A stretch of 64,000 nucleotides of DNA from Roseburia sp. (GTDB lineage: Bacteria; Bacillota; Clostridia; Oscillospirales; Ruminococcaceae). The notes below the pieces were generated by a model that saw only the letters and a list, made by a program, of their open reading frames with translations, was not told where the DNA came from and ran no database searches. The stretch lies in assembly GCA_023666265.1 (NCBI GenBank), contig JAMPCH010000006.1, positions 1 to 64,000 on the forward strand, given 5' to 3'. Made by a program: the position numbers and the translations under genes. Shown here one piece after another: positions 1-18,165 of the stretch. Each line of letters starts with the position of its first letter. The stretch's first letter is position 1.

Positions 1-2
1 TG

Positions 3-566
3 AAACAGGAAACGATTGATAAGTACCATTTGAGGATTTTGCAGGTGCATTTGTCTGAGTTCGCGGGACAAGAGGATTTCGTCCAAGCATTTAAAAGTCA
101 AGCGATGGAGATTTTAAGAGAGCATATAACGCAGGCGCAGATTGAGGAAGCGATACACAAACAAAAAAACTTCATCGAAGAGCATAGCCACAGAACCAAA
201 GAAGTTTGGAATCAGCGAGCCGAGGATGAATATATAGTCGGTTTGTGTTTTAGGTATTACGATATAGTGGATATCTATTACGAGGGCGGAGTTCGGGTTT
301 CACAGCCCTTTTTAAACGGTCCCTATTCATATACGGGTTCGACAACGTTGATGAGACTTCTCTATCGCTCTGATATGTCCTCTCAAATAAAACCGATTGT
401 GGTCGGTATTGTCGAAAATAACAACGATTATATCAGAGCCTTTGCTGTGGAAATCACACCCGAAGATATTGAGTATCAGAACTTCCGCAATGTCGATCAA
501 TATTACTTGATCGAGCCGTATGGGTTGAACCTTTGGTGGCTGAATCCATCGACGCCAGCACCGTAG
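3..566 (+). CDS. Hypothetical protein, 5' end cut by window edge
   Basis: The reading frame is open to the left edge of the window, so the start is missing; about 187 residues are visible. The protein is hydrophilic and rich in charged and aromatic residues, with a segment from about residue 75 containing YYDIVDIYYEGGVRVSQPF. No signal peptide, membrane segment or recognised motif is visible. It lies upstream of the antirepressor array on the same strand, within the phage-like element, and is followed by a non-coding gap holding two inverted repeats. I do not recognise the family. Confidence 0.6.
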   Translation, partial: KQETIDKYHLRILQVHLSEFAGQEDFVQAFKSQAMEILREHITQAQIEEAIHKQKNFIEEHSHRTKEVWNQRAEDEYIVGLCFRYYDIVDIYYEGGVRVSQPFLNGPYSYTGSTTLMRLLYRSDMSSQIKPIVVGIVENNNDYIRAFAVEITPEDIEYQNFRNVDQYYLIEPYGLNLWWLNPSTPAP

Positions 567-615
567 AAAGGAGGTTTTGACCGCTTCCGACGCTTTAATC
601 GAAGCATTATCCTAT

Positions 616-633
616 TTAGACGAGATCGTCTAA
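616..633. promoter_or_regulatory. Perfect inverted repeat, possible operator
   Basis: TTAGACGA and its exact complement TCGTCTAA are separated by 2 bases. The site lies in the leader of the first antirepressor gene, upstream of the 652-682 inverted repeat. It could be a dimeric regulator site or a small RNA hairpin; the 2-base centre favours a DNA operator. Confidence 0.4.
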
Positions 634-651
634 GACAAGAGCAAATAGAAG

Positions 652-715
652 ATGTGCGATAGTCAGATTGAGTGTCGCACATTTCTTACAAATATTCAAC
701 AAAAGATTTAGTCAA
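652..715 (+). promoter_or_regulatory. Leader of first antirepressor gene: inverted repeat, weak promoter, GATTTAGTCAA element
   Basis: ATGTGCGA (652-659) and TCGCACAT (675-682) form an inverted repeat that flanks a possible -35, TTGAGT (668-673). A weak -10, AATATT (691-696), follows at 17 bp. AGATTTAGTCAA occupies 704-715, the first of four copies of this motif in the element. The next gene starts at 737 after a strong AAAGGAGG site. The promoter match is poor; the inverted repeat and the motif are clear. Confidence 0.45.
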
Positions 716-736
716 TATTAAAAGGAGGAAATTTTT

Positions 737-1471
737 ATGAACGAAACAAGAACGATCCCTTTTGAGGGAGGGGAATTATTAGGCGTGAGAACCGAGGACG
801 GGAAGGTCTATTTAGCCGTCAAGAAAGCGTGCTTGGAAATTGGTTTAACCAAGAAACAAGCGTTTAACGAAATGAAGAAAATTCAAAACTCTTTGCTGTT
901 GTCTCAAGGAGCCTCAAATTTGAGGCTCCTTACAAACGGTGGCGAGCAAGTTGCTTTGTGCTTGAAAGAAGAGTTCGTTCCGATGTGGCTGGCGCAGATT
1001 CGATTAACGCCCGCTATGCAAAAGAATAATCCCCAAGCGGTAGAAAAGCTGCTTCGGTATCAGCTTAGGGCGACACAAGTGTTGCACGAAGCCTTTAACG
1101 GAACAGAGGAGAAGGCAGAATCGTTCTACAAAGATATGGGACTTAGCGGGAAGATCGAGAATATTTGTTCAGATATGTTGACGCTAACGGATCGTGTAGA
1201 CACACTTGCGGATCGGGTCGGAACTCTGATCGACACAGTCACGATCAACACACATCAACAACAGGAGCTGTCTAAACTGGCGCGGAGCAGAGTAAGCGCC
1301 TTGCTCGGAGGTACAGCCAGTCCCGAGTATAAGAAGATGGCGAAGACTTACTTCAAGCGCCTGTGGATCAGCGTGTGCGATGCGCTACACGTAAGTACAT
1401 ATAAGGACATCAATCCAAAACAGTTAGAGTCTGCGAAGCGTATGGTCTCTGCGTGGATGTATGAAGGATAA
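737..1471 (+). CDS. Phage antirepressor, P22_AR_N plus ORF6C-like C-terminus
   Basis: The 244-residue protein opens with a P22_AR_N-type module (about residues 5-115): IPFEGGELLGV, then VYLAVKKACLEIGL, and a run ending in MWLAQI. This is the N-terminal domain of P22-type antirepressors. A coiled-coil-like middle with heptad VDTLADRVGTL (about 150-170) follows, and the last 70 residues (LARSRVSALLGG..YKKMAKTYFKRLW) resemble ORF6C domains. Such proteins typically counteract a phage repressor and allow induction; that role is inferred. The ATG has an AAAGGAGG site 8 bases upstream. It is the first of five antirepressor-type genes in tandem. A 26-bp perfect palindrome lies inside it at 906-931. 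Confidence 0.8.
   Translation: MNETRTIPFEGGELLGVRTEDGKVYLAVKKACLEIGLTKKQAFNEMKKIQNSLLLSQGASNLRLLTNGGEQVALCLKEEFVPMWLAQIRLTPAMQKNNPQAVEKLLRYQLRATQVLHEAFNGTEEKAESFYKDMGLSGKIENICSDMLTLTDRVDTLADRVGTLIDTVTINTHQQQELSKLARSRVSALLGGTASPEYKKMAKTYFKRLWISVCDALHVSTYKDINPKQLESAKRMVSAWMYEG
906..931 (+). repeat. 26-bp perfect palindrome inside antirepressor gene
   Basis: AAGGAGCCTCAAA is followed directly by its exact reverse complement. The mRNA can fold an 11-bp stem with an AAUU loop. The codons across it read GASNLRLL. The symmetry is exact, which is unusual in coding sequence. Confidence 0.7.
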
Positions 1472-1488
1472 AATGACCGAACAAAGTC

Positions 1489-1517
1489 TTGCAATCGCGA
1501 GAAAAGTGTGGTATAAT
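1489..1517 (+). promoter_or_regulatory. Sigma-A promoter for gene at 1587
   Basis: TTGCAA (1489-1494), a 17-bp spacer and a perfect TATAAT (1512-1517). It begins just after the stop of the antirepressor gene. The transcript would start near 1524 and carry the hairpin TTCCGCC-AAC-GGCGGAA (1555-1571) directly before the ribosome site, which might modulate translation. Confidence 0.8.
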
Positions 1518-1586
1518 ATGTCACATACTAGGTCGATATTGTATCGTGAAACGGTTCCGCCAACGGCGGAAGAAAGCGAGGACAAA

Positions 1587-2162
1587 ATGCAGAAGCAAAA
1601 CATTCTCGGAACATATGAAGATTTCCGAATCGGGTCGCAGACTTTTATTGATCGTTGTACCCAAAAGATTACCGAGCATATGAGGAGCGTCAAGGGAAGC
1701 GAGCTGTTGTCGGTGTGTCTTGACGACGAGGCAGAGCGGGTCTGGATTGCGATCGACGAAGAACCGAATGTTGAGTTTGAGATGGATCCCGAAGATCAGT
1801 ATCTGGAAGACTTGCAGTCCATGGGCTATGATGTCAGTCACCTCACGGACGAAGATCTGTTTCGGGAAAGATGTCGAGGCTTGTTCCTCGAACTGAACGG
1901 GTATTTATATCTCCATCTGAGGAAGCCCGATCCGATCAGTTATAAGTACGTTTACCGTCTCGGCGATGAGAAGATCGATTATGGTAGTACGACCCTCTAT
2001 GATACATATGAGGAATGTTTGAATGCGATTCGGGAGGAATATAGTAGAGGAGAGTGCGAGGAATCGGATGTCAGAATCACCAAGGTAAAGAATGCGTTAA
2101 AGTACGCGTACTTCGAGTGCGAAACGTGGTGTTACGAGGATTATCAAGATCAATTGGGATAA
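1587..2162 (+). CDS. Hypothetical acidic protein
   Basis: A 191-residue acidic protein with no recognised domain. I chose the ATG at 1587 (MQKQNILGTYEDF) rather than 1461 because a strong promoter lies at 1489-1517, which would place earlier starts upstream of the transcript, and because AGCGAGG lies just before it. The N-terminal part (YEDFRIGSQTFIDRCTQKITEHM) is likely helical; the C-terminal half is rich in Tyr, Glu and Asp. It has its own promoter between the first and second antirepressor genes, so it may be controlled separately from them. Function unknown. Confidence 0.6.
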   Translation: MQKQNILGTYEDFRIGSQTFIDRCTQKITEHMRSVKGSELLSVCLDDEAERVWIAIDEEPNVEFEMDPEDQYLEDLQSMGYDVSHLTDEDLFRERCRGLFLELNGYLYLHLRKPDPISYKYVYRLGDEKIDYGSTTLYDTYEECLNAIREEYSRGECEESDVRITKVKNALKYAYFECETWCYEDYQDQLG

Positions 2163-2197
2163 TTTGACGAAAATCTATCCTTCTTTCTTTTTGAATT

Positions 2198-2275
2198 TTG
2201 TACAATATGCCGCTTGACGAAATTGAGTGGTGTATTGTACAATAATTATCGCATATCAAAGCAAGATTTAGTCAA
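2198..2275 (+). promoter_or_regulatory. Promoter with paired TTGTACAA operators and GATTTAGTCAA element
   Basis: TTGACG (2214-2219) and TACAAT (2238-2243), 18-bp spacer. The palindromic octamer TTGTACAA occurs at 2198-2205, upstream of -35, and again at 2235-2242 overlapping -10, with centres 37 bp apart. AGATTTAGTCAA lies at 2264-2275, 20 bases after the -10, so just inside the transcript. Nearly the same layout recurs at 9595-9669. A paired-operator repressor arrangement is the simplest reading. Confidence 0.7.
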
Positions 2276-2418
2276 AATGAAAGGGGTGGATGAGCGATGA
2301 TAGGTGAGTTTTTATAGCACAGCTTATATTTTTTTGCAACTTCAAGAAAAGAAATGGTCACAATGATATGCGTTGCCACATTCTGTAGGCGGCGTATCAC
2401 GACATCAAGGAAGAACAG
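2276..2418 (+). other. Long leader of second antirepressor gene
   Basis: The leader contains AAGGGGTGG before a 5-codon frame (ATG AGC GAT GAT AGG TGA) near 2292, then ATATTTTTTTGCAA and AAGAAAA. Similar ATATTTTTTTGC and AAGAAAA blocks occur in the 9670-9809 leader, so the two leaders share more than the promoter. No longer gene is visible here. Confidence 0.45.
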
Positions 2419-3201
2419 ATGACAAATCAATTACAGACATTCGTAAACGAAGAATTTGGCGAGATCAGAACAACAGACGTGGACGGGAAGCCGTATTTTT
2501 GCGCGAGTGACATTGCAAAAGCGCTGGGATATGCCCGTCCGAACGATGCTGTTACAGACCATTGTAGGGCTACGGTGAAACGCCGTACCCCTATTAGCGG
2601 AAAACTTCAGAACGTGAATTTCATTCCCGAAGGCGATGTTTATCGCTTAATCGTTAAGTCGAGATTGCCTTCGGCACAAAAGTTTGAACACTGGGTTTTC
2701 GACGAGATACTTCCGACAATCCGCAAGACAGGCGGCTACGTCAATAGCGTAGACCTAATGGTTGATACATATTTTGCCGGTCTCCCGAATGACCATAAGA
2801 ACTTGATCAGGGGATTGCTCAGTAATATTGAACAACAACAAAAGAAGATCACGACCCTCAACAGCGAAAACGATCTTCTGTCACAAAAGGTGCTTGAGTG
2901 GGCGGATCGCCCCCTCATCAACGCATTGGTTCGGTCGTATGCCGGGTCGATCGGAAACAATTTTGGGAAGGCGTGGAACACGTTCAAAAAAGAAATTCTC
3001 TACCGCCACAGTATCAATCTGAACGCTCGGATCACGAACTACTTGAATACGAGCGGAAAACATACAAAACCGAAGACGTTGGAGATGTTGGATGATAGTG
3101 AGCTTCCCAACGCGGTAAGTACGGCGGTGGCAATGTGTAGGGAGAATGATGTTGCGATCGATGAGATCTTGAACAATTACAGCCAGAAAGTCTCCGCTTA
3201 A
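2419..3201 (+). CDS. Bro-N domain antirepressor
   Basis: The 260-residue protein has an N-terminal Bro-N fold (about residues 1-110): FGEIRTTDVDGKPYFCASDIAKALGYARPNDAV, then the typical end SRLPSAQKFEHWVFDEILPTIRKTGGYV. A coiled coil (about 130-160, IEQQQKKITTLNSENDLL) follows, then an ORF6C-like C-terminus (GKAWNTFKKEILYRHSINLN). Bro-N proteins are phage and baculovirus DNA-binding regulators, often antirepressors. The first codons (MTNQLQ) are nearly identical at the DNA level to the next gene's. The stop codon lies in hairpin 3192-3209. Confidence 0.8.
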   Translation: MTNQLQTFVNEEFGEIRTTDVDGKPYFCASDIAKALGYARPNDAVTDHCRATVKRRTPISGKLQNVNFIPEGDVYRLIVKSRLPSAQKFEHWVFDEILPTIRKTGGYVNSVDLMVDTYFAGLPNDHKNLIRGLLSNIEQQQKKITTLNSENDLLSQKVLEWADRPLINALVRSYAGSIGNNFGKAWNTFKKEILYRHSINLNARITNYLNTSGKHTKPKTLEMLDDSELPNAVSTAVAMCRENDVAIDEILNNYSQKVSA

Positions 3202-3209
3202 AAGCGGAG
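3192..3209 (+). other. Intergenic hairpin between antirepressor genes
   Basis: CTCCGCTT and AAGCGGAG pair around a 2-base centre; the stem includes the stop codon of the Bro-N gene. No T run follows, so it is not a classic terminator. The shared leader of the next gene begins shortly after. Processing, attenuation or an antisense target are possible. Confidence 0.5.
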
Positions 3210-3214
3210 CGACG

Positions 3215-3244
3215 AAATACAATTTACAGAAAGGATATAAATAA
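3215..3244 (+). repeat. Shared antirepressor leader, copy 1
   Basis: The sequence around ACAGAAAGGATATAAA before the ATG at 3245 recurs before the genes at 4179 and 4855, where it reads AATTTAATGACAGAAAGGAT or close to it. Each copy carries the AGAAAGGA ribosome site. Conservation runs into the first codons (MTNQLQ, MNNQIQ, MENQVQ), whereas the proteins differ after that. Confidence 0.65.
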
Positions 3245-4087
3245 ATGACAAATCAATTACAAGTATTAGGAACACAGGATTTTATGGGCATTGAAATTCC
3301 GATCATCGAAGGTGGATTTGGAGAGAACCAAAGGGTAATTTTAGCGAAGACCATCGCTGAAATTCATGATGTACGGTTGAACGATGTTCAAGAGTTGATT
3401 AACCAAAATCTTCCCGAGTTTGAATACGGGATCGATATTCTCGACTTATGTGACGACAATCTCAAAACCGACGCTGTCGGTTTAGGATTAATTTCAAGTA
3501 ACCGCCAAAAACATTGCTATTTATTATCCGAACAAGGTTACATGGCTTTAGCACAGTTAATGAGAACGGAACGGGCGAAAGAAATTCGCAAACAGTTACG
3601 ACGAGAGTATTTCGCTATGCGAAAGGAGCTTAACGGGATCTCTCAAAAGAAGTCGTCCTTATTACTTTCCATTTACGACGGAGGAGTCAACGCAATTACT
3701 TCCGCGAGACAGTTAGTCGATATGGAAGTTGAGACTGCGACAACCCCGTTATTTGCGAAGATCGAGGAAGATAGACCGTATACGGAGTTCGCAAAGCACG
3801 TCACGGAATCCAGCGATACAGTTGATGTCGGGGAGTTTGCGAAGATCGTCAAGAATGAACATATCGACATCGGTCGTAATCGACTGTTCGCGTGGTTGCG
3901 AGAGAAGAAATATCTGATGGACAATAATACGCCGTATCAAAAATATCTCGATCAGAAGTATTTTGAGGTGATCGAGACGAAGAAGGAAACCGCATATGGC
4001 ACCAAGATCTTCACAAAGCTCCTCATCACGGGAAAAGGTCAAGTAGCTTTAGTGGAAAGACTTCGGAAAGAGCTGGTAGCGGCATAA
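3245..4087 (+). CDS. ORF6N/KilAC antirepressor
   Basis: The 280-residue protein begins with an ORF6N-type module (about residues 6-125): LQVLGTQDFMGIEIPII, NQRVILAKTIAEIHDVRLNDVQELIN and FEYGIDILDL, ending in YMALAQLMRTERAKEIRKQLRREYF. The last 110 residues resemble the KilAC/ANT domain of phage antirepressors (VDVGEFAKIV, GRNRLFAWLREKKYLMDNNTPYQKY, then a KLLITGKGQVALVERL end). The start has the shared AGAAAGGATATAA leader. Function as an antirepressor or early regulator is inferred from domains. Third of five in the array. Confidence 0.8.
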   Translation: MTNQLQVLGTQDFMGIEIPIIEGGFGENQRVILAKTIAEIHDVRLNDVQELINQNLPEFEYGIDILDLCDDNLKTDAVGLGLISSNRQKHCYLLSEQGYMALAQLMRTERAKEIRKQLRREYFAMRKELNGISQKKSSLLLSIYDGGVNAITSARQLVDMEVETATTPLFAKIEEDRPYTEFAKHVTESSDTVDVGEFAKIVKNEHIDIGRNRLFAWLREKKYLMDNNTPYQKYLDQKYFEVIETKKETAYGTKIFTKLLITGKGQVALVERLRKELVAA

Positions 4088-4137
4088 AGAAAGAGCGACA
4101 GCAAAAGTACATAGCGATGGGTACACATCTGACACCT

Positions 4138-4178
4138 CATCGAAATAAAAATTTAAATGACAGAAAGGACATAATCAA
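4138..4178 (+). repeat. Shared antirepressor leader, copy 2, with preceding imperfect hairpin
   Basis: AATTTAAATGACAGAAAGGA precedes the ATG at 4179 and matches the copies before 3245 and 4855. Just upstream (about 4112-4143), CGATGGGT can pair with ACCTCATCG with one bulge, so here too a hairpin precedes the shared leader. Confidence 0.6.
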
Positions 4179-4712
4179 ATGAACAATCAAATTCAAATGA
4201 AAGAGCAGAGCGAAACGACGGCGACGCTCGACACGAACCCGATCCACATTAACTACGAGGGAGAGTTTCCGACCGTCAGCGGGAGAGAGCTACACGCGGC
4301 GTTAGAGATTAAAACAGCGTATAAGGATTGGTTTCCCAGAATGTGTGAATATGGTTTCACAGAAGGCGCGGATTATAACCCGCTCATTTTTGAGCGGGTT
4401 GAACTGGAGGGGAAAAGGGAGGTCACAAGAACTATTACCGACCACTCGCTCACCATTCCGATGGCAAAGGAACTCTGTATGCTACAGCGAAACGAGAAAG
4501 GTAAGATGTTCCGGCGGTATTTTATCAAGGTAGAGGAATTTTGGAACAGTCCCGAAATGATCATGGGTCGAGCAATGGAGATCGCTCAGAGCCGGGTCAA
4601 CGAAATGAAGACAAATATCTTGAGCATAGAAGAACCGATAAAACGTGATGCTCTTTTTGCGTTATTTGCAATGAACGGAGAGAGCGCTAAAACGAAGCAC
4701 AATCTGTCTTGA
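4179..4712 (+). CDS. AntA/AntB family antirepressor
   Basis: The 177-residue protein contains an AntA/AntB domain (about residues 30-120): PTVSGRELHAALEIKTAYKD, WFPRMCEYGFTEGADY, then ITDHSLTIPMAKELCMLQRNEKGK and MFRRYFIKVEEFW. In phage P1-type systems this family antagonises the immunity repressor. The N-terminus (MNNQIQ) shares the tag of its neighbours and lies outside the domain. There is no separate C-terminal KilAC domain, so the protein is short and may be truncated. A perfect intragenic hairpin lies at 4377-4400. Confidence 0.8.
   Translation: MNNQIQMKEQSETTATLDTNPIHINYEGEFPTVSGRELHAALEIKTAYKDWFPRMCEYGFTEGADYNPLIFERVELEGKREVTRTITDHSLTIPMAKELCMLQRNEKGKMFRRYFIKVEEFWNSPEMIMGRAMEIAQSRVNEMKTNILSIEEPIKRDALFALFAMNGESAKTKHNLS
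4377..4400 (+). repeat. Perfect hairpin inside AntA/B gene
   Basis: AACCCGCTCA and TGAGCGGGTT form a 10-bp stem around a TTTT loop, within codons for PLIFERVE. Together with the palindrome at 906-931 this makes two exact hairpins inside antirepressor genes. Confidence 0.65.
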
Positions 4713-4765
4713 AACGGAACTCGCCTAGATACGGGAATGTTCCCGATGCCATTTCACGACATTGT

Positions 4766-4792
4766 AGGTATATCGTAAAACACGATATACCT
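4766..4792 (+). other. Intergenic hairpin, 11-bp perfect stem
   Basis: AGGTATATCGT and ACGATATACCT pair exactly around the 5-base loop AAAAC. No T run follows. It precedes the third copy of the shared leader. Text at 2371-2405 (TTCTGTAGGCGGCGTATCACGAC) looks like a degenerate relative upstream of the Bro-N gene. Confidence 0.6.
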
Positions 4793-4820
4793 CACCCGCA
4801 GTCGCCGAATAAGACACTTC

Positions 4821-4854
4821 AAAAGAAAAATTTAATGACAGAAAGGATATAAAA
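4821..4854 (+). repeat. Shared antirepressor leader, copy 3
   Basis: AATTTAATGACAGAAAGGAT followed by ATAAAA and ATG. It matches the leaders of the genes at 3245 and 4179 and supplies the ribosome site. Confidence 0.65.
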
Positions 4855-5658
4855 ATGGAAAATCAAGTTCAAGTATTTAATCATTCGGAGTTCGGAGAGA
4901 TTCGGACAGTCACAATCAACGACGAACCGTGGTTTGTTGCTAAGGACATCGTTGAGGTTTTAGGTTATGAAAACGGTAACAGAGATGTCAACCGACACGT
5001 TGATAGCGAGGACAGAAGATTGTTGACAAACCAAAACTACCAAAACGGTACTTTTGAAATTCCGAATCGCGGTTTGATGGTTATCAACGAAAGCGGCTTG
5101 TACGGTCTCATTCTTTCGAGTAAACTTCCATCAGCACAAAAATTCAAGCATTGGGTTACTTCCGAAGTCCTTCCCTCGATCCGCAAACACGGCATGTACG
5201 CCATCGACGATCTGATCGCGAACCCCGACCTCGGGATCGCCGCACTCATGGCGCTAAAAGAGGAACGTATGAAGGTCGCAAAGTTGGAAACAACGGTCGC
5301 GGTCAAGGAACAACAGATCACGGAGATGAAGCCAAAGGCGAGCTACTACGATGTGATCCTCAATTGTAAGGACTTGCTGTCGACGACGGAGATCGCGAAG
5401 GATTACGGAAGGTCGGCGCAATGGCTGAATGACTTCCTGCGGGATCATGAGGTTCAATTTAAACGGAACGGCGTGTGGCTATTGTATCAGAAGTACGCCG
5501 AGAAGGGCTATACGCAGACCAAGACGCATAGCCACCGTGCGGCGGACGGAAGCGCCCATTCCAAGGTTCATACATACTGGACGCAAAAGGGGCGACTGTT
5601 CTTATATGACTTGCTGAAGTCTCAAGGCGTTCTCCCCACGATTGAACAGGCGGCATAA
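4855..5658 (+). CDS. Bro-N plus KilAC antirepressor
   Basis: The 267-residue protein has a Bro-N domain (about residues 1-110: FGEIRTVTINDEPWFVAKDI, VEVLGYENGNRDVNRHV, SGLYGLILSSKLPSAQKFKH, WVTSEVLPSIRKHG). A short coiled coil (about 130-160) and a KilAC/ANT domain follow (LLSTTEIAKDYGRSAQWLND, FLRDHEVQFKRNGVWLLYQ, then THTYWTQKGRLFLYDLL-like text to the end). This is the commonest architecture of Firmicutes phage antirepressors. The start is set by leader copy 3. It is the last of the five; a zinc-ribbon gene and the tyrosine recombinase follow closely. Confidence 0.85.
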   Translation: MENQVQVFNHSEFGEIRTVTINDEPWFVAKDIVEVLGYENGNRDVNRHVDSEDRRLLTNQNYQNGTFEIPNRGLMVINESGLYGLILSSKLPSAQKFKHWVTSEVLPSIRKHGMYAIDDLIANPDLGIAALMALKEERMKVAKLETTVAVKEQQITEMKPKASYYDVILNCKDLLSTTEIAKDYGRSAQWLNDFLRDHEVQFKRNGVWLLYQKYAEKGYTQTKTHSHRAADGSAHSKVHTYWTQKGRLFLYDLLKSQGVLPTIEQAA

Positions 5659-5687
5659 CGCAATTTTTTCGGAAGGGAGTGGAAGAT

Positions 5688-5930
5688 ATGAAAACATTCA
5701 CCGCCGACGTTCGCCCCGAAAGGCACGGGGAGTGGACGAGAGGAACATACGCCACGGACGACAAAAATGTTGTGATATATGACCCCGTAAACGGAAGGTG
5801 TTCAGAGTGTGGCGGTTTTGCCGGCATACCGAAAACTTATCTCTACGATTGTGATCTACATCTTTTATTTTATCCATTTTGCCCGTGGTGCGGCGCTAAA
5901 ATGGACGGAGGGAAAGGAGCAGTTACATGA
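5688..5930 (+). CDS. Small zinc-ribbon protein
   Basis: An 80-residue protein with two CxxC knuckles: CSECGG near residue 37 and CPWCGA near residue 68. This spacing fits a zinc ribbon of the kind common in phage and mobile-element proteins. I chose ATG 5688 over GTG 5679 because AAGGGAG lies 8-9 bases before it. The stop overlaps the recombinase start (ATGA at 5927-5930), so the two are translationally coupled. Role unknown. Confidence 0.7.
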   Translation: MKTFTADVRPERHGEWTRGTYATDDKNVVIYDPVNGRCSECGGFAGIPKTYLYDCDLHLLFYPFCPWCGAKMDGGKGAVT

Positions 5931-6919
5931 CACATCCCGACATTAAAGTAGAAGTCGACCAAGTCGCCCTGCTCGAAGCCGAGATCAGGCGTCGGGAGTC
6001 GGAGATCCAAGCATTACAAGCGGAAAACCGAGCGCTATCCGCTTCGCTGAAATATGAAAAAAATCTCCGACTCTCTGTCGAGAAGAATTTAGCCGCCGTC
6101 GAAGAACAGCTTTACGGCGAACGTCAGCACAAGCGTAAAAGACGAACCAAGGTGGAGATGGAGGAATTTCGGAACAGTCGGGGCGAATATTCCGAGCAGA
6201 AAAGCAACGGCGTCAAGAAAGCTACCAAAGCCGAAACGATCCGCTCTTACACGGATTATCAAAAGATGTACGAAGCTCTTCGCGTAAAAAATCCGAGAGA
6301 CGCGCTGATGTGGACGTTCGGCGTTTGCTTCGGGATCCGCGTATCCGACATCTGTAATCTGAAATGGACGTACCTCTTGGACGATAGCTATCAATTTCGC
6401 GAACGCTTGAAGATCCGCGAACAAAAGACGAGTAAGATCCAAGACTGCCTGATCACGGAAGCAATACGAACGGAGACGACCAAGTATCTCAATTCGATCC
6501 AATGGAAGATCAACCTCCAAGATCCGATCTTCTTAAATCCCACGACTGGGAAGTCCGTTTCGGAGAAACAGTTCTACAAGATTATCGTCGACGCGAAAAA
6601 GCGTGCCGGGATCGACTACCACATCAGCACACACTCGATGCGGAACACTTTCGCGAATATCGTGTTGTGTGTGGATAAAAGCTCGATCAATATGAATGCA
6701 CTCACAAAGGTTCAGGCACTTCTCAATCATAGCGATGTTAAATGTACCATGCGTTATCTCGGCTCACTAAAAGATATGCTGGATAAGGCGCGGAACACCG
6801 TAAGCGATTTCGTCCTCGGGAAGACGGGTGTCGATGTCTTAACTGCGGGAACGAACGGTACGGAGGATGTCATGAGGAAGCTGGAAGAGCTTGAACAGAT
6901 GATGAAAGGCGGTGTGTAA
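5927..6919 (+). CDS. Tyrosine recombinase with N-terminal coiled coil
   Basis: A 330-residue phage-integrase-family protein. Residues 15-65 form a coiled coil (LLEAEIRRRESEIQALQAENRAL); a basic stretch KRKRR follows. The catalytic set is complete: Arg in GIRVSDICNLKW, Lys in EQKTSK, His and Arg in STHSMRNTF, His in LNHSD, and the nucleophile Tyr277 in MRYLG. It can therefore be active. The element also carries a large serine recombinase at its right end, so this enzyme may resolve or invert DNA, or act in regulation, as suggested for YopP of SPbeta; that role is inferred. The start overlaps the upstream zinc-ribbon gene. Confidence 0.88.
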   Translation: MTHPDIKVEVDQVALLEAEIRRRESEIQALQAENRALSASLKYEKNLRLSVEKNLAAVEEQLYGERQHKRKRRTKVEMEEFRNSRGEYSEQKSNGVKKATKAETIRSYTDYQKMYEALRVKNPRDALMWTFGVCFGIRVSDICNLKWTYLLDDSYQFRERLKIREQKTSKIQDCLITEAIRTETTKYLNSIQWKINLQDPIFLNPTTGKSVSEKQFYKIIVDAKKRAGIDYHISTHSMRNTFANIVLCVDKSSINMNALTKVQALLNHSDVKCTMRYLGSLKDMLDKARNTVSDFVLGKTGVDVLTAGTNGTEDVMRKLEELEQMMKGGV

Positions 6920-6931
6920 TGTGCAAATTTC

Positions 6932-7126
6932 TTACGACTCCTCATAAAGGTCGCCAATCTTACATTTCAACGCTTTCGCGATCAACTCCAACGTGTAGAG
7001 CGTAGGGGAGCTGAACGCGTTTTCAATATCGTTGATCTGCGACTTGCTTACGCCCGATAAGTCGGCGAGCGTCCGTAAGGACATTTCCCTGCGGGTGCGT
7101 ATTTCGTATACTTTGATGGTTGTCAT
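6932..7126 (-). CDS. XRE-family HTH regulator
   Basis: A 64-residue single-domain helix-turn-helix protein: VYEIRTRREMSLRTLADLSG, VSKSQINDIENAFSSP, TLYTLELIAKALKCKIGDLY. It is one of the few genes on the minus strand of the element and is divergent from the gene at 7240. AAGGAGA lies 4 bases before its ATG. The perfect palindrome at 7146-7161, 20 bp upstream of its start, is a natural candidate for its own operator. It sits tail to tail with the tyrosine recombinase. Likely a lysogeny regulator (Cro/CI type), inferred from context. Confidence 0.85.
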   Translation of the reverse strand: MTTIKVYEIRTRREMSLRTLADLSGVSKSQINDIENAFSSPTLYTLELIAKALKCKIGDLYEES

Positions 7127-7145
7127 AAAGTCTCCTTTTGCGATC

Positions 7146-7161
7146 GTCCGATATATCGGAC
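7146..7161. promoter_or_regulatory. 16-bp perfect palindrome, candidate XRE operator
   Basis: GTCCGATA followed by its exact complement TATCGGAC, between the divergent XRE gene and the promoter at 7178. A homodimer of the neighbouring XRE protein binding here could control both directions. Confidence 0.6.
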
Positions 7162-7177
7162 AAATCTGCGAGTCGCA

Positions 7178-7206
7178 TTGACAAAGAACGACAAAGAGGG
7201 TATGCT
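7178..7206 (+). promoter_or_regulatory. Sigma-A promoter for gene at 7240
   Basis: Consensus TTGACA (7178-7183), 17-bp spacer, TATGCT (7201-7206). The palindrome 7146-7161 lies 16 bp upstream of the -35. Confidence 0.85.
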
Positions 7207-7239
7207 AAAAACAGTTTTGAAAGGAAGGAATGTATCGTA

Positions 7240-7860
7240 ATGCACTATGAAAAAGAGCAAATTGAGAAATTTTTAGGAAGGTATAGCGTATATCGCATTC
7301 GCGCCGAGCCGCGAAACCTTATGCACGATCCGTATGAGATCCGGTGCAACGGAGGCTTTTTATGTTACGACCGGTATGTTTCGTTTCGGGTCACATTGTT
7401 ACAAACTCGGTGGATGCAATATATGCTCGAAGACATTATTGATGTTTCGGAAGCATATGGGACGCTCACATTACAAAACGGAGATTTTGATGTAACGATC
7501 TTCTGTTCCGGAGAGCCGCGCTCCGATCAACCTTCGAACGTTGAGAATATACAGACTGTGTGGGAGTTTGTCGAACCGACTTCCTTGGGTGGTCGAACCT
7601 ATTATATTTTGGATCTCAGTAGAGTAGACACGGAGAGCGTCAATCTGTTTTCACCGATCATATCCGGTCTGCGTATCCGGGCGAGAAACACAATGGGAAC
7701 TTCGGCTTACGCGCGATCCGATCTCACCGTTTATTATACGGGAGACACTACGACCATCAACAAGATCGGGCTGTGGGATCGTGACACGAGCCAACCGGTC
7801 GCGGAGACAACGGCGCTTTTTCAATACCCGTTGAGTAAATTATGCGTTGACAAATCATAA
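7240..7860 (+). CDS. Hypothetical protein in immunity-like region
   Basis: A 206-residue protein without a recognised domain. I start it at ATG 7240 (MHYEKEQIEKFLGRY) because the promoter's -10 ends at 7206 and AAGGAAGG lies at 7221-7228. The sequence alternates hydrophobic and polar residues (LDLSRVDTESVNLFSPII, RSDLTVYYTG), which suggests a beta-rich fold. The next gene's promoter overlaps its last codons. In SPbeta, small unknown genes occupy the same kind of position in the yopN-yopR cluster; homology is not established. Confidence 0.65.
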   Translation: MHYEKEQIEKFLGRYSVYRIRAEPRNLMHDPYEIRCNGGFLCYDRYVSFRVTLLQTRWMQYMLEDIIDVSEAYGTLTLQNGDFDVTIFCSGEPRSDQPSNVENIQTVWEFVEPTSLGGRTYYILDLSRVDTESVNLFSPIISGLRIRARNTMGTSAYARSDLTVYYTGDTTTINKIGLWDRDTSQPVAETTALFQYPLSKLCVDKS

Positions 7861-7875
7861 GTTTCGTGATATACT
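7847..7875 (+). promoter_or_regulatory. Sigma-A promoter for recombinase-like gene
   Basis: TTGACA (7847-7852), 17-bp spacer, TATACT (7870-7875), overlapping the stop of the upstream gene. The next ATG is 24 bases further on. A near-consensus promoter of this kind suits a constitutively made lysogeny protein. Confidence 0.85.
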
Positions 7876-7898
7876 AAAAAAGAGTAAGGGGTGATTTT

Positions 7899-8918
7899 AT
7901 GGAAAAGTATACAAAAGAACGTCTGACGGATTATCATATCGATCCGGTCGATAAGGACGCTCTCGTTCGGTACGAGAACGCGATCCTCGCGAGCGGTATC
8001 GATCGGAAACTGCAAAACGGCTATCGGAAGGTGTGCCTCAAGCTGGCGACATTTTTGGAGGATCATACAAACGTTCCGTTGCGAGATTGGGATCTTGAGA
8101 TTTTAGAGACCTTCCATCAAATGTACTACCCGCATACGACGCTGGACTACGCCTATGATACACTACCGATGGTCTTAAAAAGCGCCGGATCGAACCTAGA
8201 TACTCAGGAAATGAAATCACTCATGAAGCCTAAGTATAAGAGACGAAACGAAGTGGAGGTCGCTAAAGCGGGCGAGGGAAAGGAGGGCGCGACCGAATAT
8301 TTTTTGTCGTGGGGAGACCTCGACGCTACGATGTCACAGGCGCTCCTTCGTTGCTACCCGGAAGAAAATCCCGTGACGTACATCAGTAAACATTCGTCGG
8401 CGAAGGCGGTCTATTGTTTGGGGTGGCTTGGCTTTACCGTGTCGGACATCGACCGACTGGAGCGATCCGCTTATGATCCTCAAAATAAACGCTTTCTTTT
8501 TGATGGGAAGGAGTACTCTTTTTCGAGCTTTCCGACAATGGCGCGTTTCTTTGATGCCTATCAAAATGCGGATGGATTTCTTCGGATGAATGCTACCTCG
8601 GAATATTTTCAAACATTTAGCGATACGCCGTGGTTTATACGAAAAGCGCGACCGACCGGCGGATTCCAAGCTACCCGATATACAAAAAAGGCGGCTGACC
8701 TTTTCGGTTTTCCTTTTTTGGACGTGTTATGGTCGGGTCGACTCAATCGTCTTTACGGATACGAAAGCGCCAGCGGTGAATTGAGCCTCGCGAATTTGGA
8801 GGAAGCTGCGAATGATCTGAAAATCGATTTGGGCGATCGGTATCAAGGTACAAAATATCAGCGCTTGATGATGATCTACCAACGGTATAAACAGATGAAA
8901 CAGTTGAACGGAGGATAA
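7899..8918 (+). CDS. Degenerate tyrosine-recombinase-like protein, possible MrpR-type repressor
   Basis: A 339-residue protein. Residues 20-105 look like a SAM-like core-binding domain (YENAILASGIDRKLQNGYRK, VCLKLATFLEDH). From about 165 the text YCLGWLGFTVSDIDRLERSA parallels the box-I region of tyrosine recombinases (LG.R.SE...L.W.D), but the catalytic Arg position holds Thr. I see no HxxR motif and no credible C-terminal Tyr. The SPbeta master repressor MrpR (YopR) is a catalytically dead protein of this fold, and this gene sits near a tyrosine recombinase and an XRE gene as in SPbeta. A DNA-binding repressor role is inferred. It has its own consensus promoter. Confidence 0.55.
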   Translation: MEKYTKERLTDYHIDPVDKDALVRYENAILASGIDRKLQNGYRKVCLKLATFLEDHTNVPLRDWDLEILETFHQMYYPHTTLDYAYDTLPMVLKSAGSNLDTQEMKSLMKPKYKRRNEVEVAKAGEGKEGATEYFLSWGDLDATMSQALLRCYPEENPVTYISKHSSAKAVYCLGWLGFTVSDIDRLERSAYDPQNKRFLFDGKEYSFSSFPTMARFFDAYQNADGFLRMNATSEYFQTFSDTPWFIRKARPTGGFQATRYTKKAADLFGFPFLDVLWSGRLNRLYGYESASGELSLANLEEAANDLKIDLGDRYQGTKYQRLMMIYQRYKQMKQLNGG

Positions 8919-8920
8919 AG

Positions 8921-9562
8921 ATGACCGAGATTTTAAGCGTACAAGAGAGACATCGCTTGGCGGAACAGGAAAAAGAGCGGAGATCCAAGGATTGGACGAC
9001 ATGGAATGTGACGCGTGCGAGTCAACTTTGTCGTGACTATAGCGGCGTACTGACCCGTCAGATCGTTCGAACGAACCGTGCGTACTATACTTATCATTCT
9101 TCGATGGGGGAAGGTCGCTCTCGGTATCATAAGATCTTCGAGATCGCAACCTTGCCGGGTAGTCATCCGTTCGCGGAGACGATCCACGCCCATTGCGTCT
9201 TGATCGTTTATCACGAACTGGTATGGATCGAACCGACCGAAGGGTGGACGTCGATGTCTTTCGTTCACGAAGAGTTCGACGAAAACAACAACCCGAAAGT
9301 ATATGTGGGAATCCCGGACACACAATGCGAAGAGGTCGGCTCTAAAATTCACAAGGTATTTGAAAATACGGATTGGCTGAAATGTGATTGGGTACGAGGC
9401 TCTGAATTACCAAACCTCAGATTTCGAGATCGCAAGGAATTTGAGCCGTTCTCGACGGAGGCTTTATTTTCGCCCGACGAAACGAAAGTGTATTACGATC
9501 CGTATCCTCACCGTTTTGTTCAGCCGAGCGAAAACGATTTTATATTGCCTTGCGTGATATGA
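8921..9562 (+). CDS. Hypothetical protein downstream of recombinase-like gene
   Basis: A 213-residue protein without a recognised domain, 2 bases after the preceding stop and with GGAGGATAAAG before its ATG, so it is in one operon with the recombinase-like gene. The N-terminus is helical and charged (SVQERHRLAEQEKERRSKDW); the rest has many aromatic residues and an acidic C-terminal third. Function unknown. It ends just before the operator-bearing promoter at 9595. Confidence 0.65.
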   Translation: MTEILSVQERHRLAEQEKERRSKDWTTWNVTRASQLCRDYSGVLTRQIVRTNRAYYTYHSSMGEGRSRYHKIFEIATLPGSHPFAETIHAHCVLIVYHELVWIEPTEGWTSMSFVHEEFDENNNPKVYVGIPDTQCEEVGSKIHKVFENTDWLKCDWVRGSELPNLRFRDRKEFEPFSTEALFSPDETKVYYDPYPHRFVQPSENDFILPCVI

Positions 9563-9594
9563 CTAAAAATTTCTTTGACTGCGCCTTATATTTT

Positions 9595-9669
9595 ATACAA
9601 TATGACGATTGACTTTTTCGTTGAAATATTGTATATTATTTATAGGCTTTAAAGAAAAGATTTAGTCAA
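9595..9669 (+). promoter_or_regulatory. Second promoter with paired operators and GATTTAGTCAA element
   Basis: TTGACT (9609-9614), 17-bp spacer, TATATT (9632-9637). ATACAATAT (9595-9603) and its complement ATATTGTAT (9626-9634) flank the -35 and overlap the -10, matching the layout at 2198-2243, including the shared text TACAATATG just before the -35. AGATTTAGTCAA lies at 9658-9669, again 20 bases after the -10. This is the promoter of the recombination/replication operon. Confidence 0.75.
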
Positions 9670-9809
9670 AACCTGCGGTCGAAATCTCCGTTGCTCGAAC
9701 GATAAAATCTCTTTATTCAAGGATTATCACAAAATATTTTTTTGCGATAAAAGAAAATTTATGCTAATTCAATAAAATAAATAGTCAAATTTAAAAAGGA
9801 GGAAAACAT
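9670..9809 (+). other. Long leader of the replication operon
   Basis: 140 bases with no gene. TTATC-A-CAAAA and TTTTG-C-GATAA (around 9725-9752) can form a stem-loop. The blocks ATATTTTTTTGC and AAGAAAA also occur in the leader at 2276-2418. A copy-like AATAGTCAAATTT lies near 9778. Confidence 0.45.
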
Positions 9810-10214
9810 ATGACAAACATTAAAGAAGTGATCCGCAACATTGCCTCCGAAAAAGCGACGGCGGCGCGGAACACAGCGGACAAAGTGACCGTCAACAACG
9901 TAGTATTCGCAGAGGGAATCCAGCCCGGCGAAGTCCGATTGGAAAAGGGCATCGCGGATGTGGGTGACTTGATGGGAGAAAAAGTTCAGCTGGGATATAT
10001 TGTCCGGGAATCATACGGCTTGATTGTTCGGTGGTTTCGATCCTGTGGCGTGATGTTTTATGAAGAAGACTACGTCTCACTTGATCGGATCCCCGAAGAT
10101 GCGCCTCGTGTCGATGGGCGACAAAAGCTTTATCGGTCGGAACGCACAACCGAAAATTCCCAAAACAAAACACAACAAGTGAGCCTTGAAACAATCGAAG
10201 AAAGGAGCAACTAA
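9810..10214 (+). CDS. Hypothetical protein, first gene of replication operon
   Basis: A 134-residue protein with a strong AAAAAGGAGG site. The N-terminus is helical (IKEVIRNIASEKATAARNTA); the middle (LGYIVRESYGLIVRWFRSCG) is hydrophobic but not a convincing membrane span; the C-terminus is polar and probably disordered. The stop is adjacent to the Erf start. No family recognised. Confidence 0.65.
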   Translation: MTNIKEVIRNIASEKATAARNTADKVTVNNVVFAEGIQPGEVRLEKGIADVGDLMGEKVQLGYIVRESYGLIVRWFRSCGVMFYEEDYVSLDRIPEDAPRVDGRQKLYRSERTTENSQNKTQQVSLETIEERSN

Positions 10215-10955
10215 ATGAAGACTCAGTCTCAGACAGAACAAGCGGATTTAACCCCCGCCAACATCTACGAAAAGCTTTCCATGATCGCGGAAAACGTCAA
10301 AATTTTAAAGAAGAGTAAGAGCGGATACGGCTATACATATGTGCCGATCGAGGATATTCTTGCGGGGATTCAAGGGAAGATGAAGGAACTCGGCGTTATG
10401 CTGATCCCCGAGATCGGCGGATCGGACTGTGTATTCCCGGAACAGACGAAGGTCACTTACGATAAGGCGGGAAATCGTCAGGAAAAGCCCGTCAACGAGC
10501 TGGTCATCAGCGGGAAGATCACCTTTACTTGGGTGAATATCCATAACCCGGACGAACGGCTGTCGATCCCGTGGTATTATTACGGGAAACAGGAGGACGC
10601 GTCTCAGGCTTTCGGTTCGGCTCTGACCTACGCAACAAGATACTTCCTGTTATCCTTCTTCCAATGTGCGACGGCGGACGACCCGGACAGGATCGTTGCC
10701 AAGAAAAAAGAACTGGAAGCGCAGGAGAATAAGCGGATCATTTCCGACATCAGCGATCAGATCGATCAGATCGGAAAAGACTTTGTCGCGAAGTACCCCG
10801 ATAAGAGAGACGCGCTTTGGGATACGATCCGAAAGAATACGGTAGACGGAAACGGGAAAAAGCCTGAGAATTACCGCGAGCTTCAATCTCCCGCCGCCGC
10901 GTCCGCGTTATTAAAGGCGATCAACGAATTTGTAAACAGTACGGAGGCGAAGTAA
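10215..10955 (+). CDS. erf: Erf-family single-strand annealing protein
   Basis: The 246-residue protein matches the ERF family: NIYEKLSMIAENVKILKKSK, YGYTYVPIEDILAGIQGKMK, ELGVMLIPEI, and the signature-like segment QAFGSALTYATRYFLLSFFQ followed by DDPD. ERF proteins bind single-stranded DNA and anneal complementary strands for phage recombination and genome circularisation. The C-terminal third is charged and helical. The next two genes (SSB-like and nuclease) start immediately after, which forms a standard phage recombination module. Confidence 0.88.
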   Translation: MKTQSQTEQADLTPANIYEKLSMIAENVKILKKSKSGYGYTYVPIEDILAGIQGKMKELGVMLIPEIGGSDCVFPEQTKVTYDKAGNRQEKPVNELVISGKITFTWVNIHNPDERLSIPWYYYGKQEDASQAFGSALTYATRYFLLSFFQCATADDPDRIVAKKKELEAQENKRIISDISDQIDQIGKDFVAKYPDKRDALWDTIRKNTVDGNGKKPENYRELQSPAAASALLKAINEFVNSTEAK

Positions 10956-11348
10956 ATGGGATTTAGAAACGGAAGCTACGCAAAGGTGTGGGAAGTAGCT
11001 GTCGCGCCAAGCGGAAAAAGCACAAGGATCAAATTTTCGATCTCAAAAAAGGATCGGAGTACCGGGGAGTATTCGACCGAGTTTTCGGGGTTCGCGAGCC
11101 TTTTAGGGGAGGCGCACAAAAAGGCGGGTATTTTACAATCGGGCGATCGGATCAAGCTTGAGGAGTGCGACGTATCATCGCATTACGACAAAGAGAAAAA
11201 TCAGACATTCTATCAGTTCAAGGTTTGGAAATTCAGTAAAGCTGACGCGCCGCAACAGACGACCGCCGATTATCCCTTTGAGGGCGGGACAGAACCGATC
11301 CCGGAGAAAAGTGAAACATCGCAAACGCCGCAGTCCCTACCCTTCTGA
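10956..11348 (+). CDS. SSB-like OB-fold protein
   Basis: A 130-residue protein that begins directly after the Erf stop. The first 95 residues look OB-fold-like (IKFSISKKDRSTGEYSTEFS, SGDRIKLEECDVSSHY). The tail is Pro/Glu/Gln-rich and ends in QSLPF, which resembles the C-terminal tip (DDIPF) through which SSB recruits partner proteins, though it lacks the acidic residues directly before it. It likely coats single strands for Erf. Sequence identity to canonical SSB is low, so the fold is inferred from tail and context. The stop overlaps the nuclease start (TGATG). Confidence 0.65.
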   Translation: MGFRNGSYAKVWEVAVAPSGKSTRIKFSISKKDRSTGEYSTEFSGFASLLGEAHKKAGILQSGDRIKLEECDVSSHYDKEKNQTFYQFKVWKFSKADAPQQTTADYPFEGGTEPIPEKSETSQTPQSLPF

Positions 11349-12124
11349 TGAACGACTACTCTTTTTACATAGCCGGAATGACGTGGAGCTATTCGAGGCT
11401 GACGACGTTTGAGGATTGTCGATACCGCTTTTTGCTTCGGTATATTTTAAGGGAAGAAAAGTCCGACCAAAAATTCTTCGCTTCTTACGGAACATTGATC
11501 CACCGAATACTGGCGGAGACGGCGAAACAGCGGATCGGTCGGAGAGAGGCGCTCGCCTTATATCTTGGCGAGTTCGCCGATCTCCCGATCGACTTGGTTT
11601 CGCCCGACGTTCGAAAAAAGTATTACGAAGACGGGAAGGATTATTTGACTCGGTTAGAGCCTCCCGAAGAACCGATCTTGAGCGTCGAACAAAAGGTAAA
11701 GTTTCGGATCGGTCGGTATCCTTTCGTTGGATACATCGATCTGGTGACGGGAACAAATAAGGCGTACACGATCGTGGATCATAAAACTCGTATTTTAAGC
11801 AGTAAGCGCTCCAAGAAAGCAACAAGATCTTACGACGAATTTGTACGATATGCCCGACAATTATACCTCTATTCGATCGCGACGGAAGCCTTATATGGTG
11901 TTCCTCCCCAAAAGATCCGTTTTAATTGTTTTAGAAACGGAACAAGCGCGGAAGAACCCTTCATACGGGACAGACAACAAGAGGCGAAACGGTGGGCGGA
12001 ATCGCTGATCGAAGAGATCGTTGATTGTAGGGACTGGAAGCCGACGTTGGATTGGTTTCGCTGTCGAAACTTATGTGACTATTTTTCGTCCTGTGAATAC
12101 GCCCAGACGAATTTCGGTAATTGA
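11348..12124 (+). CDS. PD-(D/E)XK nuclease with Fe-S cysteines (Cas4/AddB-like)
   Basis: The 258-residue protein shows the RecB/Cas4 nuclease pattern: WSYSRLTTFEDCRYRFLLRY, GTLIHRIL (motif I His), FVGYIDLVT (Asp), TIVDHKT (D-x-K), and RQLYLYSIA (QxxxY). Four cysteines (one in FEDC near residue 24; three in RCRNLCDYFSSC near the end) match the 4Fe-4S clasp of AddB and Cas4. It presumably resects or trims double-strand ends to feed Erf. It is not next to CRISPR genes, so a Cas4 role in adaptation is not supported. Start overlaps the upstream stop. Confidence 0.85.
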   Translation: MNDYSFYIAGMTWSYSRLTTFEDCRYRFLLRYILREEKSDQKFFASYGTLIHRILAETAKQRIGRREALALYLGEFADLPIDLVSPDVRKKYYEDGKDYLTRLEPPEEPILSVEQKVKFRIGRYPFVGYIDLVTGTNKAYTIVDHKTRILSSKRSKKATRSYDEFVRYARQLYLYSIATEALYGVPPQKIRFNCFRNGTSAEEPFIRDRQQEAKRWAESLIEEIVDCRDWKPTLDWFRCRNLCDYFSSCEYAQTNFGN

Positions 12125-12153
12125 TCATTTATTTTTTTTGCCTTATCAACGAA

Positions 12154-12180
12154 GGATTTAGTCAATAACAAGCGAGGAGG
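12154..12180 (+). promoter_or_regulatory. Fourth GATTTAGTCAA element and strong ribosome site before helicase
   Basis: GGATTTAGTCAA (12154-12165) is followed by GAGGAGG (12174-12180), continuing into TGAT, which pairs with 10 bases of the 16S tail. The flanking bases TATCAACGAAGG resemble those of the other three copies. No clear -35/-10 is visible upstream, so here the element lies in an intercistronic leader. Confidence 0.55.
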
Positions 12181-12189
12181 TGATGAACG

Positions 12190-13524
12190 ATAAAAAATGC
12201 AAGTGAAATCCAAAATATCGAGAGCGAAGCGGGGATCATCGCGACGCTCATTAAACACCCGGAATTTTCTTTCTATTCCGAAAATTTACGGTATACGTAT
12301 TTTACCGATTCGATCAACGGCTATATCTATTGGGCGATCCAAAAGCTGGCGCAAAAAGACGTTCGACAAATCGACGCGTATAACATTAGTAATATTTTGT
12401 CTCAGAACAAATATACAGCGCAACAAGCGGAGACCAAGATCACGATAGATATTCTAAACGAGATCATATCGACCGCCGAATACATAGCTCGAGACACCGT
12501 GGAAGAATATCTGATTCTGACGGAATCGGTCGTAAATTGCGCTATGCGGCGCGAAACCTATCGGAAGCTTGTAGAGTGCGAGCGGCTATGCTTTAACGCT
12601 TCGGAAACCGATCTGGAACAAAAAATCTATACGACCCTTGATAATGTGATGATGGACTTCTCCACCTTAACAAAAATCCCGCCGTTTTCCGAAGAAGTAG
12701 ATCGCCTATGGGAGGAGATCACGCAACGCCAACAGGCGGGAATGACCGGGATCCCGTTTAAGTTCCCGTCTCTGAACGAATACGTGACGATCGAGCGCGG
12801 GGAGCTGGTCGTGTTCGGCGCGGAGCAAAAGCAAGGAAAGTCGATCTTATTGCTGAATCACGCGATCGATCTTCTCCGACAAGGATACGCGGTCTTGTAT
12901 ATCGACAGCGAGCTTAATTCCCGCATCTTCTTAATGCGAATGTTATCGCATCTGACCGGGATCGAGTTCAGCCGACTTCGTTCGGGAAGGTATACGCCGG
13001 AAGAAAACCGACGGATCGGACAGGCAAAGGAATGGATCAAAAAGAGAAGGATCACTCACGTCTATCTGCCGATGTTCGACGCACAAAGCATTTTTACAAT
13101 CACCAAAAAAGTGAAGCATACACAGGGTCTGGACGTGCTGATCGTGGATTATTTTAAGGGAAACACCGATGGTGACGCGTTCGCTTTATATGCCGAGCTG
13201 GGGAAGCTTGTGGATATGGTAAAGAACAAGATCGCGGGCGATATGGATATTGCCGCGATCGGAGCCGCTCAAGCGACCTCGACGGGGAAGCTGGCGGACA
13301 GCGCCAAGATCGCTCGAAACGCCTCTACGATCATTATGATCCAAGATAAGACCTTGGAGGAGATCGAGCGGGACGGTCAAAATTGCGGGAACAAAAAAAT
13401 GCGTGTCGTATTCAATCGCAATGGGGCGCAAATGATGCCGAACGAATACATCGATCTGAGATTTAACGGCAATCGGATCTTATACGAGGAAGCTGACCGA
13501 CACGCCGCGACCGAACCGTATTAA
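12190..13524 (+). CDS. DnaB-like replicative helicase, non-standard start
   Basis: About 444 residues. The C-terminal half is a DnaB/RecA-type ATPase: Walker A GAEQKQGKS, then YAVLYIDSELNSRIFLMRML, and Walker B-like LDVLIVDYF. The N-terminal domain (NIESEAGIIATLIKHPEFSF) is also in frame, beginning well before the first in-frame ATG at 12397. Between the stops at 12181-12186 and 12397 I see no usable ATG, GTG or TTG near the strong AGGAGG site; ATA 12190 lies 9 bases after it and ACG 12187 lies 6. An ATG at 12183 is out of frame, and loss of one A from the A6 run would join it. The boundaries of the start are therefore uncertain; the helicase call is not. Confidence 0.8.
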   Translation: MKNASEIQNIESEAGIIATLIKHPEFSFYSENLRYTYFTDSINGYIYWAIQKLAQKDVRQIDAYNISNILSQNKYTAQQAETKITIDILNEIISTAEYIARDTVEEYLILTESVVNCAMRRETYRKLVECERLCFNASETDLEQKIYTTLDNVMMDFSTLTKIPPFSEEVDRLWEEITQRQQAGMTGIPFKFPSLNEYVTIERGELVVFGAEQKQGKSILLLNHAIDLLRQGYAVLYIDSELNSRIFLMRMLSHLTGIEFSRLRSGRYTPEENRRIGQAKEWIKKRRITHVYLPMFDAQSIFTITKKVKHTQGLDVLIVDYFKGNTDGDAFALYAELGKLVDMVKNKIAGDMDIAAIGAAQATSTGKLADSAKIARNASTIIMIQDKTLEEIERDGQNCGNKKMRVVFNRNGAQMMPNEYIDLRFNGNRILYEEADRHAATEPY

Positions 13525-13537
13525 GGAGGTGAAAAAA

Positions 13538-17764: not shown

Positions 17765-18165
17765 CCGAGGCGCTGACCGCCTTTACCGCGATACAAGGTA
17801 CGGATGAGTCGATCGTAAAAAAGGCGATATTGATGGCAAATCGCAACAACCTTTTGTTTCGCCGTTTGGTACTGGTCGCGGTCGGAAAGATCAAAACCGG
17901 TATGACTTCGGAAAAATTGGAGAAGTCGATCTTTTATCGAAAGAAACCGGATATTCCCGCCGACGTATCGACGATGATCCGATATTATCGCGCGAATCCG
18001 AAGGGAAAAGACGAGGACATCGCGGTGACACAGTTGTTTTTACAGCAATGCCCGAGGACATATCGAGAGTTTTTAAAAAGACTGTTTTGCGGTGAAATGT
18101 CGCTCGATATTTCGCCGTCAACGGTACAAAGAATATTTGGTAAAAAAGAAAGGAAGAAAGAATGA
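17743..18165 (+). CDS. Hypothetical protein overlapping dnaE end
   Basis: About 140 residues, helical and basic towards the C-terminus (VQRIFGKKERKKE). The start is uncertain: ATG 17743 lies within the end of dnaE and GTG 17707 is a longer alternative with GGAGTGG near it. Text such as AVTQLFLQQCPRTYREFLKR suggests a helical bundle, and the SPSTVQRIFGK end resembles a short HTH-like tail. No family recognised. It is coupled to dnaE by overlap. Confidence 0.55.
   Translation: METDVRLTEALTAFTAIQGTDESIVKKAILMANRNNLLFRRLVLVAVGKIKTGMTSEKLEKSIFYRKKPDIPADVSTMIRYYRANPKGKDEDIAVTQLFLQQCPRTYREFLKRLFCGEMSLDISPSTVQRIFGKKERKKE

Follow-up and report, generated by a model that had tools for sequence, protein, structure and literature searches.

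What is the function of an 11-nucleotide word, GATTTAGTCAA, that stands in exact copy before four early gene units of a prophage, and is it read as DNA or as RNA? The prophage region, truncated at base 1 where the contig starts, extends to a serine integrase gene (28416-30002), while the window denotes the whole stretch of 64 kb that was analysed. An earlier note had described four exact copies in untranslated DNA before early genes, and these were recovered at the same coordinates (705-715, 2265-2275, 9659-9669 and 12155-12165), all on the plus strand and all in noncoding DNA between genes. No further copy with up to one mismatch was found in the whole window, nor any outside the four sites in the whole assembly (2,809,675 bases, 98 contigs), so that coding and host sequence hold none and the four intergenic copies are the genome total. 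Enrichment, proposed earlier as a check, was assessed against simulated sequence, in which at least four copies are rare: out of 500 first-order simulations of 18 kb, a single one contained an 11-mer with four copies, and in simulated intergenic DNA of the element an 11-mer with at least four copies arose in 6 of 2000 runs. Since only 1332 bases (about 7%) of positions 1-18000 are noncoding, a four-fold occurrence exceeds what chance would give, and GATTTAGTCAA is the top-ranked intergenic 11-mer of the element by copy number. A position-matrix scan added two weak plus-strand copies, GAAATGGTCAC at 2351-2361 (score 15.9) and TAAATAGTCAA at 9778-9788 (score 20.0), downstream of the 2265 and 9659 copies, respectively. 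All exact copies lie within the first 12.2 kb of the approximately 30 kb of element in hand, with none between 12.2 and 30 kb, and the term element-wide, used earlier for the motif, is thus too strong.

At two of the sites the motif lies just inside the transcript expected from a sigma-70-like promoter. The promoter scan placed these plus-strand promoters at 2214-2243 (TTGACG-18-TACAAT) and 9609-9637 (TTGACT-17-TATATT), and the motif follows the -10 element at an equal distance in both; the equality had been recognised before, with a length of 20 bases, whereas 21 are counted from the ends of the -10 elements at 2243 and 9637. Each promoter is flanked by operator-like sequences without assigned strand, namely the pair TTGTACAATA / TATTGTACAA (2198-2244) and the inverted repeat TATATTTTATACAATAT / ATATTGTATATTATTTA (9587-9642), and on sequence grounds this TTGTACAATA-type inverted repeat appears the more conventional operator candidate. 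A weaker likeness to it may be present at 1509-1543, by a promoter at 1489. The two leaders align over about 220 nt with a score of 83, compared to a maximum of 41 in 200 shuffles, and share 67% identity outside the motif (123 of 184 columns), which clearly marks them as diverged duplicates. Their longest identical block is AAGATTTAGTCAAAA (15 nt), which contains the motif, followed by the 12-nt block ATATTTTTTTGC, found on the plus strand at 2326-2337 and 9734-9745; an alignment of three leaders gained nothing over the pairwise one. The first real genes begin some 150 nt downstream of the motif (first large gene at 2419, first gene at 9810, respectively). An ATG does occur at +32 of the 2265 copy but opens a frame of only six codons, and a TTG behind the 9659 copy one of only four. 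Given this distance, a purely translational role is unlikely for these two copies.

The other two leaders are built differently. The 705 copy is immediately preceded by a plus-strand, intrinsic-terminator-like hairpin with a TTTCTT tail (652-687; fold of 600-745, z -3.47) and is followed by the Shine-Dalgarno sequence AAAAGGAGGAAA and the ATG at 737, 32 nt from the motif start. The 12155 copy is preceded by a plus-strand T8GC tract (12132-12141) and lies 35 nt upstream of the probable ATA start of dnaB (12190), in an unusually long gap between the exonuclease gene and dnaB. No promoter was found before either copy in the threshold promoter scan. The flank TCAACRAAG, ascribed earlier to all copies, holds for 12155 and nearly for 705, and is not seen at the remaining ones. 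With the motif masked, no leader pair other than 2265/9659 displayed significant similarity, and in the case of 705 and 12155 this implies that the word was kept by selection or acquired separately. That the word stays exact while its flanks are diverged or unrelated points to a function, although the contexts that are independent of each other number only three. Two further regularities concern the surroundings of the motif. On the plus strand of the element, tracts of at least seven T are confined to 2329, 9737 and 12132; each is followed by GC, and they lie 22-41 nt upstream of the copies at 2351, 9778 and 12155. Likewise, the 32 nt from motif start to ATG at 705 recur between the weak copy at 9778 and the ATG at 9810. 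Taken together, the four-fold 11-mer is a real repeat with a probable regulatory role, and its location, strand and conservation fit a control site that recurs in early leaders, a proposal which is thereby supported in part.

The genes behind the sites belong to several functional groups. The copy at 705 precedes a P22_AR/ORF6C antirepressor gene (737), while antirepressor genes of the Bro-N, ORF6N/ANT and AntA types line up behind the 2265 copy, from 2419 onwards. The 9659 copy leads into an operon (9810-12124) with genes for an ERF annealing protein and a PD-(D/E)XK nuclease, and the 12155 copy into dnaB, primase and DNA polymerase genes from 12190. For dnaB, no in-frame ATG, GTG or TTG is present before 12397, while the N-terminal domain begins at about 12200; comparison with relatives places the start at the ATA at 12190 (ATG in L251 and L254, ATA or CTG in L256, TTG in L255). 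Judged from these sequences, the gene probably uses this rare start codon, the alternative being a single-base shift within the A6 run (12192-12197). Within the same region, a further type of leader, seen around AAAATTTAATGACAGAAAGGATATAAAAATG, is repeated before three antirepressor genes at 3245, 4179 and 4855 (windows 3200-3245, 4140-4179 and 4815-4855).

Relatives of the polymerase and of DnaB were found in IMG/VR and in one MAG. No repeated motif was present in the polymerase relatives (L155-L157, L175-L247) or in the DnaB and methylase relatives (L251-L336), in which single matches looked chance-like. Similarly, GATTTAGTCAAWA gave scattered matches in 396 family genomes, with at most two per genome except in G000, and DNA-pattern scans of IMG/VR returned single matches, mostly inside coding sequence. 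Nearer relatives of the prophage were not found among 396 family and 394 order genomes. Conservation in related elements, which the earlier note had proposed to look for, was thus not seen in a set that held no closely related element, and the motif is so far specific to the present lineage. Two apparent counterparts were discarded, as the GACTTTAGTC repeats of L177 look like the ends of an IS605/TnpB-like insertion and those of L156 (3750-4070; phage contig, same as L175) resemble a CRISPR-like array with a period of about 66 nt. At the exonuclease-dnaB junction, the relatives in which it was readable (L155, L178, L254 and L256) exhibit an overlap or a gap of few bases, compared to about 65 nt here, which contain the T8 tract, the motif and a Shine-Dalgarno sequence. 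Two side observations were made in these comparisons. In L155 (6999-8669 and 11257-13578), dnaB and the DNA polymerase gene are interrupted by insertions of intron-like appearance. For the DNA methylase gene of the element (23912-24727), viral contigs contain over 300 relatives, of which the best is 91% identical; this is far closer than for the replication genes, which suggests recent exchange.

The reading that we favour, tentatively and at somewhat less than an even chance, is that of an asymmetric, sense-oriented DNA site, placed where early transcription units begin, whose mode of action would resemble that of Cluster A mycobacteriophage stoperators. A regulator encoded by the element would read the 11-mer in one orientation. 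At 2265 and 9659 the site would lie just inside the transcripts of the two duplicated promoters, each of which has, apart from the motif, an operator-like inverted repeat. The scan gave no promoter for the 705 copy, which follows a terminator, or for the 12155 copy, which precedes the long dnaB operon; a protein bound there would therefore act on polymerase that is already elongating, and the occupied site would block read-through in the lysogen. Both the binding of a protein to the DNA site and the block to transcription are steps that we infer, as is everything said here on function beyond the facts of sequence. In favour of a DNA site are the four exact, sense, intergenic copies absent elsewhere in the genome, their survival in diverged leaders, the lack of a conserved fold with the motif, and the dnaB gap as opposed to tight junctions in relatives. 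Against it stand the small number of strong copies (four versus 20-30), the lack of a relative with the motif and the presence of another operator-like repeat at both promoters. Furthermore, constant sense orientation and closeness to a Shine-Dalgarno sequence at 705 and 12155 equally fit an RNA signal. Scans with Pfam, PHROGs and NCBIfam recognised no candidate binder, and the only helix-turn-helix protein in the examined part of the element is a 64-aa XRE protein beside a different site. The latter is the perfect palindrome GTCCGATATATCGGAC (7146-7161), situated between the XRE gene on the minus strand and a divergent promoter.

A signal in the RNA is a close rival, possible even if we lean against it. 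Here, a phage protein would bind GAUUUAGUCAA as single-stranded RNA of the 5' leader, possibly along with the U7GC tract, and would thereby cause antitermination or control the processing or translation of early mRNAs. Such a role would account for a motif that is invariably sense and in a leader, that begins 21 nt past the -10 element at both promoters, that precedes a start codon by 32-35 nt at 705, 12155 and the weak copy 9778, and that accompanies the element's only plus-strand T7+ runs. However, folding of the leaders gave no conserved fold that includes the motif, and neither folding nor Rfam detected a structured element such as a boxB hairpin or put. The 705 copy lies downstream of the very terminator that would need to be bypassed, and the copies at 2265 and 9659 are too distant from the first gene to control its translation directly. 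A complementary small RNA was considered as partner and rejected, since the genome holds no perfect (11/11) complement except at the motif sites themselves. No 16S rRNA with which the motif might pair was found in the assembly.

Hitch-hiking is unlikely: leader cassettes would have been copied within the element, leaving the 11-mer as a functionless remnant. Copying as such is evident from the 2265 and 9659 leaders with their alignment score far above the shuffle maximum, and the second repeated leader type before the antirepressor genes at 3245, 4179 and 4855 speaks for it as well. Yet the motif is conserved at 11 of 11 positions while its flanks have diverged to 67% identity or beyond detection, and it is present before unrelated genes. 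Still less probable is that the motif serves a phage-encoded transcription factor as a promoter or activator box, in which case 2265 and 9659 would each combine an early with a middle promoter in tandem, and 705 and 12155 would have a middle promoter only. This would explain why genes follow the latter two copies without a recognisable promoter and why the motif is close to start codons, but inspection by eye revealed nothing resembling a -10 element at a constant distance from the motif, the element proteins searched yielded neither a sigma factor nor an RNA polymerase, and YonO of SPbeta has no match in the genome. The analogy drawn earlier to the SPBRE sites of Bacillus phage SPbeta, which are bound by MrpR (PMC10516654), now fails, and an SPBRE-type operator read by the tyrosine-recombinase-like protein at 5927-6919 is hardly credible: that protein retains its catalytic residues and SPbeta (134 kb) has a single exact copy of the 11-mer.

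Which of the two leading readings applies determines what the site would mean. If it stops elongation, it would show that control of lysogeny by one-way roadblocks has arisen in phages other than the Cluster A mycobacteriophages, and if it acts as RNA, it would point to an undescribed early-gene regulator. Under both, it marks the units that the prophage may control together, namely two antirepressor leaders and the operons for recombination and for replication. A more far-reaching version of the DNA-site reading, in which stoperator-like one-way stop sites exist outside mycobacteriophages, in a large Clostridia prophage, with an unrelated reader and the conserved T7GC tract as partner block, is considered rather unlikely.

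Three known systems can be compared with the motif. The likeness to SPBRE consists in a repeated intergenic word in a prophage that, as SPbeta, carries a serine integrase and an additional tyrosine-recombinase-like protein. The two systems differ in that most catalytic residues are lost in MrpR (PMC10516654), while the protein encoded here keeps R138, H236, R239, H268 and Y277 (alignment with XerA, H236xxR239) behind an N-terminal coiled-coil-like stretch. Similarity of this protein to MrpR was not detectable. Antitermination leaders of the lambda nut or put type carry a short element early in the transcript. The present motif resembles them in its early position and its equal distance from two promoters, but the leaders are without a conserved hairpin, a boxA-like sequence (by eye) or an Rfam match. 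Cluster A stoperators, known from L5 and its relatives, are asymmetric sites of 13-14 bp that occur 20-30 times per genome in intergenic gaps, oriented with transcription, and are phage-specific; a repressor with a helix-turn-helix and a stoperator domain binds them as a monomer and blocks elongation depending on their orientation (PMC9283540, PMC6550527). The motif shares with them the short asymmetric site, the placement in intergenic gaps and near promoters, the orientation with transcription (4/4 sense and noncoding) and the phage specificity, whereas its sequence and host phylum are different and four exact plus two weak copies, in an element cut by the contig end, compare with 20-30. Owing to this far lower copy number, and as no candidate reader was recognised, the motif is filed as a site that may work like stoperators rather than as a member of that class.
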